Assembly (NCBI GenBank): GCA_944327245.1
Contig: CALVHD010000002.1
Span: 1 to 64,000 of the forward strand
Direction: 5' to 3'
Length of the DNA stretch: 64,000 nucleotides
Source: Candidatus Gastranaerophilales bacterium
Lineage (GTDB): Bacteria > Cyanobacteriota > Vampirovibrionia > Gastranaerophilales > Gastranaerophilaceae
Shown here: positions 8,189 through 11,882 of the stretch, one piece after another
Layout of the letters: every line of letters starts with the position of its first letter
Numbering within the stretch: position 1 is the stretch's first letter
The notes under the pieces: generated by a model
Databases searched by the model: none
What the model saw: the letters and a program-made list of their open reading frames with translations, nothing else
Told to the model about the DNA's origin: nothing
Program-made: the position numbers and the translations under genes

Positions 8189-8508
8189 AGATATTTTTTA
8201 ATATTTGATATTATTGCACTTTTTGGCATCATTCCAACCATAACCTCTTTAACTTCTTTATTTTGAAAAATTAAAACGCTTGGCAAAGAAGCTATGCCAT
8301 ATTCTTTTGCTTTTTGCGGATTTTTATCTACATCTATTTTTACAACTTTAATTGTTCCGATAAATTCATTTTGTATTTGCTCTAGCACAGGAGCAAGCTT
8401 ACGGCAAGGCCCGCACCAAGGCGCCCAAAAATCAACAAGAACAATTTGAGAAGAATTAAATACGACATTTTCAAAACTGCTGTCATTTATTTCTTCAATA
8501 TTTGCCAC
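8185..8508 (-). CDS. trxA: Thioredoxin
   Basis: A 107-residue thioredoxin with WCGPC active site (C32, C35), the preceding VDFWAPW strand and the cis-Pro SLPSVL loop. The start is GTG at 8508, with AGGAGG five to six bases upstream. It is divergent from nth and convergent with glutaredoxin. Standard cytoplasmic disulfide reductase. Confidence 0.96.
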
Positions 8509-8544
8509 ATTTACCTCCTTTTTCTTTTTTTATATAATTATACC

Positions 8545-9186
8545 ATGGATATCGATAACATTTTTTTAATTTTAAAACATGATTTTGACAACAACATACT
8601 GCCTCACAGCGAATTTGTAGACTTTATGGAAAACATAAAAAATCCTTATATTGTTTTGATTTGTTGCATTTTATCTTTAAGAACAAACGACAAAACCACA
8701 ATCGGCGCCTCTAAAAGAATGCTTGAATTAGCTAAAACTCCCGATGAAATGATAAAAGTTGATGTTGATTCCCTGCAAAATGCAATTTATCCTGTAGGAT
8801 TTTACAAAAACAAAGCTTTGCAAATAATTGAATTATCAAAAATTATTGTTGAAAAATATCATTCAAAAGTTCCCAAAACCATTGACGAATTAACACAATT
8901 CAAGGGCGTAGGAAGAAAAACCGCCAACCTTGTTTTAACTAAAGGTTTTGGACTTAAGGGAATATGTGTCGATGTACATGTTCACCGAATTTCCAACCGT
9001 CTTGGTTATGTAAAAACAAAAACACCCGATGAAACAGAAATGGAATTAAGGAAAATTCTGCCTAAAAAATATTGGATAGATTTTAATACCTATCTTGTAA
9101 CTTTAGGGCAAAACATCTGTAAACCACAAAAGCCAAATTGCGCCAATTGTCCAATTTCAAAATATTGCAAGAAAGTGTTTAATTAA
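8545..9186 (+). CDS. nth: Endonuclease III (DNA glycosylase/AP lyase)
   Basis: A 213-residue HhH-GPD base-excision repair enzyme. Visible: the helix-hairpin-helix with catalytic lysine ([12 protein letters not shown]), catalytic aspartate in [13 protein letters not shown], and a C-terminal 4Fe-4S cluster spaced C-x6-C-x2-C-x5-C. I chose ATG 8545. The frame is open upstream to 8446, but that extension lies inside the divergent trxA gene and is not Nth-like. It ends tail to tail with the ferritin gene (TTAA shared stops). Confidence 0.95.
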
Positions 9187-9668
9187 ACACTTTCTTTGAT
9201 ACCAAGCTCTAAAATTTCAATGTTTGGAGAAATTATATTTGAATTTTTTATTCTGAATACAAGTTTTCTCATTTTTCCAACATTTATGACCTGCTTTGAA
9301 ATAAGATTTGCAACATATTCTATAGCAGCCACATCATCAGCATCTTTTGCAATCTTATATAATTCATATAATTTTGTTAAAGTAAACTCTTCGCAAGCCA
9401 ACGCACTTGAAAATAAATCAGATACATTTATCCAATCAACAGAAGGCTCATCTATTTTCAAAAGAGTTAATTTTTCATCTCTTAAAATAATGTAATCATA
9501 AATTTTCTGCGCATTGTTTAATTTTTGAGAAGCAATATGCTTCATATAATCACAAAAGCCTTTCATAGCAATTTCATCAAAATATGTTGACATTGCAAAA
9601 TACAAATATGCACTATAAAATTCATGATTAATTTGCTTATTAAAAGCATCAACTAATTTTGTTTCCAT
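9183..9668 (-). CDS. Ferritin-family protein with degenerate ferroxidase site
   Basis: A 161-residue protein whose [20 protein letters not shown]-terminus aligns with bacterial ferritin FtnA. Aligning by eye to E. coli FtnA, E17, Y24, E94 and Q127 are kept. E49 becomes Q, E50 becomes K (K49 here), H53 becomes N (N52 here), and the EQxEEE motif becomes KQVINV. The di-iron oxidation site is therefore probably lost. It may form mixed cages or have another role. It lies 13 bases downstream of desulfoferrodoxin in an apparent operon. Confidence 0.85.
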
Positions 9669-9681
9669 TTTACTTTCTTTC

Positions 9682-10059
9682 TTATTTTGTAGTCCAAACG
9701 CCGTCTATATTGCAGTAAATTCTGATATAAAATCCTTCTTTGCAATTACATTTAAAAGACATTTCAGGTTTGTCGGTTTCTTTTAAATATTTTCTTTTAA
9801 TATATATACCGTCATTTGAAATTGCTTCAATGAATTCAATATGGTGTTCTATAGTTGCACCATGGGTAAAAGTAACCTTCTTTTCAACATCATCAATGTG
9901 TTCAATATGAGCATAATGAGGATTATTTTCACTTGCTATATGTTCACTCATCAATTTCATATTTTCATTACAACAAACTAATGTACCCTCACCTTCATGA
10001 ACTACTTCAACAACATTAGAACAAACATCACACTTGTAAATTTCCATTTTTTTAGTCAT
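9682..10059 (-). CDS. Desulfoferrodoxin-like protein with altered catalytic iron site
   Basis: A 125-residue, two-domain superoxide-reductase-like protein. The N-terminal rubredoxin-type centre is intact (C10, C13, C29, C30). For the catalytic centre, H48, H66, H72 and C116 match the expected ligands. The last histidine ligand is D119 (YCNIDG instead of YCN-x-HG), and the catalytic Glu-Lys before the first His is Asn-Pro. Two extra cysteines (C104, C106) sit nearby. It is first in an operon with the ferritin-like gene. Superoxide reduction is likely altered or lost. Confidence 0.85.
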   Translation of the reverse strand: MTKKMEIYKCDVCSNVVEVVHEGEGTLVCCNENMKLMSEHIASENNPHYAHIEHIDDVEKKVTFTHGATIEHHIEFIEAISNDGIYIKRKYLKETDKPEMSFKCNCKEGFYIRIYCNIDGVWTTK

Positions 10060-10183: not shown

Positions 10184-10372
10184 ATGGCAAAAATTTTAAT
10201 TTCAATGAAAGATAATTTCTTAAAAACCATTGATGAAATGGCGCAAAAAGAGCAAAGAACCCGCTCTGAGCTAATTAGAGAAGCCCTTAGAAGTTATATT
10301 AAAAAAGCTAACACCATAGCCCCTAAAAAAGCTCAACAAGAAGCTACATTGCTCGAGTCTTTGCTAGACTAA
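10184..10372 (+). CDS. Ribbon-helix-helix (CopG/Arc-type) DNA-binding protein
   Basis: A 62-residue protein with an N-terminal beta strand (AKILISMKD), then two helices with the RHH signature RTRSELIREALRSYI. A Shine-Dalgarno (AGAGG) lies 5 to 10 bases upstream. No toxin gene follows, so it looks like a stand-alone repressor, not an antitoxin. Its promoter carries the inverted repeat described at 10101-10165, so autoregulation and control of the divergent iron-protein operon are plausible. Its 3' end overlaps the convergent GH13 gene by 29 bases. Confidence 0.85.
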   Translation: MAKILISMKDNFLKTIDEMAQKEQRTRSELIREALRSYIKKANTIAPKKAQQEATLLESLLD

Positions 10373-11882
10373 CCATATAAACCTGAATTTCTAAAGGTTC
10401 AAGAGTGGTTTTTATTAAACTTTTTTCAATTTTCGGTTGTCTTTTAGTATTAATCAATGAAAACAAGTAATCTTTTCTTAAATATTTAGATTTTAAATTA
10501 ACATCTTGATTTTGATTTTCATCTAAAGAACCGACAACAATAAGTTCTCTGTCTTTATCTGTTATTGAATAAGCAAAAACTTTTTCGTTTTTTGTATCCA
10601 AGATTTTAAACGTACCGCCGTTAATTAAATCAAGATTTCTTTCTTTAAAGCTGATTGCTTTTAAATATTTCTTTTTTAGTTCAGAATGTTTTAATCTGAT
10701 TGGTCCTGTTAAATTAAAAATGTCAAACATTCCGCTATGCACAAAATAATACTCATCATCTGTCTGGCTATTTTTAGCTTTTTTATTTTCATAAGAGTAA
10801 GTAAAATCATCTCCTTGTGAAAAACCATCTAAGAAATATGAATTAACAGGCAAGGTTGTTGTTAACCATAAAACCATATCCCAATAATTTTTACCTCTTA
10901 GAATAGGCGCTTGCTGGTCATGCGTTGCAAAAGACGCCATGATGGATTTACCTTTATTTTTCTTTAAATTCTTTAAGTTATTTTTAATTTTTCTATCAAA
11001 CTCATTCTTGCTTTTAATATTTTTAAAATCACTCCAAGAGCCGTAGTAACAATCAAAACCTGCCTCCAACAACTCATCAATCGAAGTGTATTTACTAACC
11101 GCCAAAGGTGCAGGATTGCCCCATTCCAGACTTGCTTCAGCCAAGAACAGAAAATTTTCATTTTTGCTTCTGGCGTAGTTAATTATCTCTTTCCAGAATT
11201 CTTTTGGTTTAATTGCGGCAACATCAACTCTAATGCCGTCAAAACCGATTTCTTGCGCCATATCTACGAAACTTTTAAAATTATTCAAAGTATCTTTATA
11301 TAAAGTTTTGCCATCTTTGTCGTATATTTTAAACAACCTGACATCTGTCCAATCAGCAGGAATTATTGCTTCTTGTTTCTTATCCAAAACGAACCAATTC
11401 GGTTTTCTTAAACTAAAATCATAAGAACCGCAACTTGGTAAATCTAAAATGACATTTAAATCAAGACTGTGAGCAGTTTTTATAAATTCTTTTGCCTCAT
11501 CTATAGCCGGCATATCATTTTTATTATCATCCAACTGAGGATTAATTGTATTAAATGAATCCATAGCATACAATGAACCTGCTGTTCCTAATGCTTTTAA
11601 TTTACCGCTCGGAGTAATCGGAAGCACATAGATTGTATTTATTCCTTCGTTTTTAAGACTTTGCAATTTATCTTTTGCATTTAAAAATGTGCCTTTAATA
11701 TCACCTTCATCCTCATCAATTATACTGTCATGGTTTTTATCAACCGCACCAAAATTTCTGATATTTATAGTGTAAATAACAGCTTTGTTATTTTTAAATA
11801 CTTCTCTTAAATTTTCCCTTGCATCCAATTGAGGAGACAACAGAAGCAAAGCTAATACCCCGATAACTAATTTTCTTTTCAT
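10344..11882 (-). CDS. Exported GH13 alpha-amylase-family protein
   Basis: A 512-residue protein with a signal peptide (first ~21 residues, LLLLSPQLDA) and a GH13 barrel. Catalytic residues seen: nucleophile D220 (GFDGIRVD), acid E249 (FLAEAS) and the transition-state Asp in ATHDQQ near 322. A DKNHDSIIDEDEGD loop (48-61) resembles a calcium-binding EF-hand. In conserved region I the usual D-x-V-x-N-H reads DLPSCGS, so the Asn-His pair is missing; specificity may differ from starch amylases. It would act on alpha-glucans in the periplasm or outside the cell. Confidence 0.85.
   Translation of the reverse strand: MKRKLVIGVLALLLLSPQLDARENLREVFKNNKAVIYTINIRNFGAVDKNHDSIIDEDEGDIKGTFLNAKDKLQSLKNEGINTIYVLPITPSGKLKALGTAGSLYAMDSFNTINPQLDDNKNDMPAIDEAKEFIKTAHSLDLNVILDLPSCGSYDFSLRKPNWFVLDKKQEAIIPADWTDVRLFKIYDKDGKTLYKDTLNNFKSFVDMAQEIGFDGIRVDVAAIKPKEFWKEIINYARSKNENFLFLAEASLEWGNPAPLAVSKYTSIDELLEAGFDCYYGSWSDFKNIKSKNEFDRKIKNNLKNLKKNKGKSIMASFATHDQQAPILRGKNYWDMVLWLTTTLPVNSYFLDGFSQGDDFTYSYENKKAKNSQTDDEYYFVHSGMFDIFNLTGPIRLKHSELKKKYLKAISFKERNLDLINGGTFKILDTKNEKVFAYSITDKDRELIVVGSLDENQNQDVNLKSKYLRKDYLFSLINTKRQPKIEKSLIKTTLEPLEIQVYMVSLAKTRAM

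Follow-up and report, generated by a model that had tools for sequence, protein, structure and literature searches.

Ferritins without ferroxidase ligands, paired with altered desulfoferrodoxins, in one genus of Candidatus Melainabacteria

In animal L-ferritin the iron site is replaced by a salt bridge between Lys62 and Glu107 (PMC11396501). Among bacteria, one review attributes rapid ferroxidase activity to all ferritin types except FtnB (PMC6315955), and another terms Salmonella FtnB a canonical ferritin (PMC8264917). For superoxide reductases (SORs), the SORGOdb paper gives the centre II motif as HX5H-CX2H, and the title of a work in its reference list assigns a catalytic role to E47 and K48 (PMC3116461). 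Titles and abstract openings in the open literature yielded no description of a desulfoferrodoxin gene paired with a ferritin that lacks its ferroxidase centre, and an open-literature search yielded no matching report on SOR residues 47, 48 and 119 together.

A pair of this kind lies in the window, by which we mean the whole 64,000-nt stretch of DNA that was analysed. The window comes from a genome of 1.70 Mb (45 contigs, 97% complete) in Gastranaerophilales, an order of Candidatus Melainabacteria. Here g1 denotes the genus of the window genome, g52 and g55 denote other Gastranaerophilales genera, and L and G numbers denote loci and genomes, respectively. The locus consists of the following features:

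8446..9186, plus strand: nth, endonuclease III-like, convergent to ftnX
9169..9196, minus strand: terminator-like palindrome where the 3′ ends of ftnX and nth converge (stem of 12 pairs, including 3 G-C; a candidate by pattern only)
9183..9668, minus strand: ftnX (name coined here), ferritin-fold protein of 161 aa without ferroxidase ligands (open reading frame, profile, structure, alignment)
9682..10059, minus strand: dfx, desulfoferrodoxin, separated by 13 nt from ftnX downstream of it (open reading frame, profile, alignment, structure)

One terminator-like stem was found, compared with a mean of 0.4 (sd 0.9) in shuffled sequences. Also on the minus strand, at 10344..11882, is an alpha-amylase-like protein with what appears by eye to be a signal peptide; its family matches are weak, the TreS N-terminal domain scoring 45.7 bits where the cut-off is 678.35.

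FtnX scores 86.4 bits with the Pfam Ferritin profile (PF00210; cut-off 24.5), and its closest relatives among sequences of solved structure are T. maritima ferritins (E 4.6e-26). An AlphaFold2 model of the monomer, built with 39 sequences, has a mean pLDDT of 91 and a pTM of 0.85, with lower pLDDT values of 60-80 over residues 141-161. The predicted helices (3-32, 36-62, 82-109, 113-145 and 148-160) would make up a four-helix bundle followed by helix E. The model superposes on T. maritima ferritin 7dy8 over 161 of 161 residues (Z 24.9, 1.3 Å) and on E. coli FtnA 1eum with residues 1..161 matched to chain residues 2..162 (Z 24.0, 1.4 Å). The ferritins of known structure listed by the superposition are 16 to 31% identical to FtnX. 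Reference sequences were FtnA and FtnB of E. coli K-12, taken from NC_000913, and T. maritima ferritin was also aligned. Residue n of window FtnX corresponds to residue n+1 of FtnA, and ligand positions are given in FtnA numbers.

In this register window FtnX carries the substitutions E49→Q, E50→K, H53→N, E126→K, E129→I and E130→N, such that EQHEEE of FtnA reads KQVINV, and it retains E17, Y24, E94 and Q127. A first-pass annotation, made by eye, had named Lys at E50, Asn at H53, KQVINV at EQxEEE and the same four retained residues, and alignment to FtnA agrees with it. The structural alignment to FtnA that it had proposed as a check gives the full-length match to 1eum, and the ligands are not restored in any register. 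An alternative alignment that would bring them back was ruled out, as the superposition runs end to end with zero net shift.

The ligand pattern was then compared among 26 FtnX orthologues, 40 ferritins from outside g1 and 28 canonical paralogues of g1, termed Ftn1. The 40 outside ferritins were drawn from the best 43 non-g1 matches (down to G069), with G272 (partial), G230 (contig end) and G257 omitted; L113 is g1's own Ftn1 and was counted as such. Position 50 is basic in every FtnX (24 K and 2 R), whereas Glu occupies it in 40/40 outside ferritins and 28/28 Ftn1, a contrast that places ligand loss beyond chance. At position 53, where all outside ferritins and all Ftn1 have His, FtnX has C (12), N (7), S (2), R (2), L (1), T (1) or V (1). 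Five further positions are intact in every member of both comparison sets and eroded in FtnX: E49 is retained in 12 of 26, E126 in 12, Q127 in 17, E129 in 1 and E130 in 2, with E130 absent from window FtnX and from 24 of the 26 overall, and replaced by Cys in 4. E94 and Y24, on the other hand, are kept in all sequences of the three sets, and E17 in all except two FtnX (Q in L010 and L020; 24/26 kept). The complete ligand set of catalytic H-type or FtnA-type subunits (E17, E50, H53, E94, Q127 and E130) is not found in FtnX. Every orthologue lacks both E50 and H53, plus one or more of E49, E126, E129 and E130, which lends good support to the expectation, voiced in the first-pass annotation, that no di-iron site forms. 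Every FtnX has thus lost ligands for iron, keeping the E17/Y24/E94 frame (E17 in 24/26) and gaining a fixed basic residue at position 50.

FtnX orthologues (at least 57% identity) are present in 26 of 28 g1 genomes. Of the two others, G006 (77% complete) yielded neither dfx nor ftnX, and G026 (82% complete) has dfx on a contig that ends 172 nt after the gene, which makes the absence of FtnX uninformative. In searches that reach relatives of FtnX only, matches of at least 247 bits among 383 family genomes were confined to the 26, the next best scoring 185.6. At the order level, 286 sampled genomes contained 34 matches at E 1e-38, of which 20 belong to g1 and the other 14 score no more than 185.6 bits. 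A contig search gave 40 loci: 25 in g1, 14 outside that retain E50, H53 and the EEE residues, and L076, too short to judge. A sequencing or assembly artefact was rejected, since the altered ferritin occurs in 26 genomes. In another genus of the family, a ferritin match at G033:C11:822413-822865 (minus strand) contains one in-frame TAG. The second, normal ferritin that the first-pass annotation had advised looking for exists in the window genome at C1:48610. This is Ftn1, and it is canonical and present in 28/28 g1 genomes, at a different locus from ftnX.

All 26 ftnX genes are preceded by dfx in the same orientation. Of 25 g1 loci, 23 have a gap of at most 32 nt between the two genes, while L055 and L056 have gaps of 322 and 421 nt; nth and trx come next after ftnX in all 25. 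The order dfx-ftn-nth-trx also occurs in L061-L063 (g52), L068 and L072, and was not seen in L066, L067, L069, L070 and L071. Given this shared order, ftnX most likely derives from the canonical ferritin of the dfx-ftn operon in this position and did not arise by a fresh duplication. In a tree of 62 ferritin and desulfoferrodoxin pairs, the bipartition that sets g1 apart has a support of 100 and is the longest internal branch, with 0.85 substitutions per site. A sister relationship of g1 and g52 was unsupported (node support 18).

What could such a protein do? We take Lys62 and Glu107 of the L-chain to be equivalent to E. coli positions 50 and 94. On this correspondence all 26 FtnX show the L-chain-type combination of a basic residue at E50/E62 with a retained E94/E107. 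Of the two roles that the first-pass annotation had offered, a structural ferritin subunit or a new function, the lysine, as in L-chains, speaks for the first. Our leading reading, to which we give roughly even weight, is that FtnX is a non-catalytic ferritin subunit with a plugged pocket, kept for forming a cage or complex, its gene being part of a repurposed iron/superoxide operon with an altered desulfoferrodoxin (Dfx). Its parts differ in strength. FtnX very probably has no rapid ferroxidase activity; a buried salt bridge from K50 to E94/E17 is probable, given the fold and the conservation; a role that is structural or complex-forming, and not storage, is a balanced proposition; and a joint new function of FtnX and Dfx is a tentative suggestion. 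Mechanistically, the ammonium group of K50 (R50 in two species) would occupy the former iron position and bridge E94/E17, locking the four-helix bundle much as Lys62-Glu107 does in animal L-chains. FtnX would be kept for its shape. Helix E and the BC loop, which is still conserved, would mediate its assembly, whether into an oligomer of FtnX alone or together with the cell's canonical ferritin. It would work with the altered Dfx encoded directly upstream, and the cell's iron oxidation would be left to Ftn1.

Support for this reading comes from K/R50, the loss of H53 and the retention of E94 and Y24, each in 26/26, from E17 in 24/26, from the full-length fold and the BC loop, and from purifying selection, the presence of Ftn1 in 28/28 genomes and the constant company of dfx. 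The 26 orthologues share 46 invariant columns, E94 included, and the BC loop is among their most conserved parts, with L62 R63 D64 E65 K66 L67, E74 P75 and D78 W79 I80 N81 (window numbering) invariant. Counting against it are the two orthologues with Q at E17, the encoding of Ftn1 at a different locus, and basic helices B and D, which would make FtnX a poor nucleation subunit. Leu50 (window numbering), directly after K49 (position 50 of FtnA), is also invariant. The haem-ligand Met of bacterioferritin presumably sits directly after the position-50 ligand; haem binding of the bacterioferritin type was rejected for FtnX, which has Leu where that Met would be.

The mean net charge of helix D is +3.1 in FtnX, as compared with -3.5 in the 40 canonical relatives and -3.7 in Ftn1. 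For helix B the corresponding means are +2.3, -0.8 and -4.2, with slight overlap between the ranges of FtnX and the 40 relatives. Helices B and D of ferritins face the cavity, and in animal L-chains acidic cavity residues favour mineral nucleation. As helices B and D of FtnX are instead net basic on average, the lumen would be basic and ill suited to nucleating mineral, a point against FtnX acting simply as an L-chain.

Dfx has changed as well. The window protein has the two-domain fold (Z 17.1 to both 1dfx and 2ji2) and an intact Cys4 centre I (C10, C13, C29 and C30; CX2CX15CC). In centre II, H49, H69, H75 and C116 are retained, and the substitutions are E47→N, K48→P and H119→D, in numbers that we take to follow the Desulfovibrio-type SOR. 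Of the SOR centre II signature, HX5H is kept (H66-x5-H72 in the window) and CX2H is broken, reading C116-x2-D119 in the window; with 20 more orthologues, the break occurs in 21/26. Throughout the 26 g1 genomes K48 is gone; position 119 holds D in 21 of them and H in the other 5 (L012, L017, L019, L021 and L031). Outside g1, E47-K48 is present in 33/36 Dfx (exceptions: L094 with AV, L096 with AA and L115 with EY) and H119 in 36/36, the set of 36 omitting L109, L110, L111 and L118, which belong to the 40 ferritins and showed no dfx in the sequence stretch examined. The two altered positions covary without exception: N46 (the E47 position in window numbering) is found only with D119 (21) and D46 only with H119 (5). 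A 27th g1 Dfx, L147, is also N46/D119 and stands outside these counts. Parsimony requires two steps at each position. It looks as though a carboxylate had crossed the metal to its opposite side, but two events are few, and L031 counts as a separate one at a node with a support of 67.

The loss of K48 need not have abolished SOR activity. The PDB title of an SOR from Ignicoccus names a T24K variant, implying a native T at the place of the lysine; with T24 as the SOR lysine position and an active native enzyme, a lysine-free SOR seems to occur there. The five g1 species that retain H119 likewise count against loss of SOR function. Desulfoferrodoxin matches number one in the window genome and one each in 27 of the 28 g1 genomes, and a profile search for Fe/Mn-SOD (PF02777), positive in 12 of 14 control genomes, found none in the 28. 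In g55, L094 and L096 carry their AV and AA replacements of E47-K48 beside a fully canonical ferritin, so a change in Dfx does not require a change in the ferritin.

The basic charge of helices B and D, together with the remodelling of Dfx in parallel, on which the first-pass annotation is silent, points to a new role of the pair and not to a simple L-type storage subunit. The two changed sites suggest that dfx-ftnX was given a new job instead of being lost. A bolder explanation than our leading one, which we regard as possible but doubtful, is that FtnX forms a homo-oligomer whose basic lumen or surface binds a non-mineral cargo (an anion, nucleic acid or Dfx), with Dfx as a redox partner bearing a re-tuned site of Fe(His)3(Asp)(Cys) type. 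Both genes diverge from all examined relatives on the strongly supported g1 stem and have been constrained since, yet a single stem branch amounts to one event, so the coupling of FtnX and Dfx is putative. The flip of helix D from acidic to basic is accompanied by a conserved RKLVFRIKN stretch, in which F138, R139 and then N144 are specific to g1; its RKL part, however, is already present in the canonical ferritin L061. The pairing of Dfx residues 46 and 119 in 26/26 would fit a re-tuned site, but the second origin of D46/H119 (L031) hangs on the node of support 67, the loss of K48 may be compatible with SOR activity, as the Ignicoccus title implies, and the g55 loci indicate that the two changes are separable. 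It is a speculative prospect that the dfx-ftn operon, in related genera an ordinary pair for defence against superoxide and iron, was converted as a unit in one gut Melainabacteria genus, with a salt bridge for the di-iron centre, basic inner helices, a change from Fe(His)4Cys with E47/K48 to 3His-Asp-Cys with a carboxylate swap, and a new redox complex.

We consider it improbable that FtnX binds iron or another metal in a new site, using E17, E94 and Q127 together with variable carboxylates at 126 and 130 or with Cys53, and acts as a slow ferroxidase. The retention of E17 (24/26), Y24 and E94 would accord with this, as would Cys53 in 12, Cys130 in 4 and E126 in 12 of the 26, but a basic residue at position 50 of every orthologue would repel metal, and no additional candidate ligand is conserved.

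Selection was estimated by the Nei-Gojobori method from pairs with 0.05<dS<1.5 only, and the dN/dS values are rough, dS being high in most pairs. Among the five closest species the medians are 0.066 for ftnX (9 of 10 pairs), 0.076 for dfx (10 pairs) and 0.049 for Ftn1 (10 pairs). Over all g1 pairs in range they are 0.167 (96), 0.259 (122) and 0.140 (308), respectively, and in the canonical g52 operon 0.059 for the ferritin (44 pairs) and 0.061 for dfx (19 pairs). Both genes, dfx most of all, evolve faster than their canonical counterparts; ftnX is nevertheless under purifying selection, and the values argue against neutral decay. No ftnX has an internal stop (26/26), and a recent pseudogene was rejected on the open frames together with dN/dS. 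That Ftn1 made the operon ferritin redundant and left it to slow decay is the least probable account and largely disfavoured: Ftn1 in 28/28 genomes, the free variation at positions 53, 126, 129 and 130 and g1-wide dN/dS above that of the g52 operon are consistent with it, but dN/dS near 0.07 among the five closest species, the uninterrupted frames, the invariant columns and the universal K/R50 all speak against it.

FtnX seems to be a bacterial parallel, found in nature, to what animal L-chains do when Lys takes the place of Glu in the pocket for iron. Since a related genus preserves catalytic relatives at this locus, the use of a ferritin without a ferroxidase centre is directly testable. The altered SOR beside ftnX and the lack of Fe/Mn-SOD matches in the 28 genomes prompt one to ask how superoxide and iron are managed in these gut bacteria. 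The labels ‘ferritin’ and ‘desulfoferrodoxin’ are, at this locus, not proof of active enzymes.

Four known systems invite comparison. Animal L-chains, like FtnX, have an iron-site Glu replaced by a Lys that bridges Glu (in FtnX, by our inference) and a catalytic partner subunit in the same cell; FtnX differs in being bacterial, in its basic B and D helices where those of the L-chain are acidic, and in being encoded with a desulfoferrodoxin. E. coli FtnB (YecI, b1902) is also a paralogue beside a canonical ferritin, FtnA, and has lost centre residues (E50→N, H53→Q, E129→H and E130→D), but it is 16% identical to FtnX, has Asn and not Lys at position 50 and has other gene neighbours; the two losses are presumably independent. 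The canonical dfx-ftn operons (L061-L063 and L066-L072) contain the same gene pair at 40-48% identity, and L061-L063, L068 and L072 share the flanking nth-trx with the window locus, whereas all of them, unlike the window, retain every ferroxidase ligand and H119 of Dfx. Desulfoferrodoxins of the Dx-SOR/2Fe-SOR type have the two-domain fold and intact centre I of the window Dfx, in which, by contrast, CX2H of centre II is broken. Precedents for a ferritin of this kind were thus already known in animal L-chains and E. coli FtnB, and the finding of FtnX is real and well bounded.
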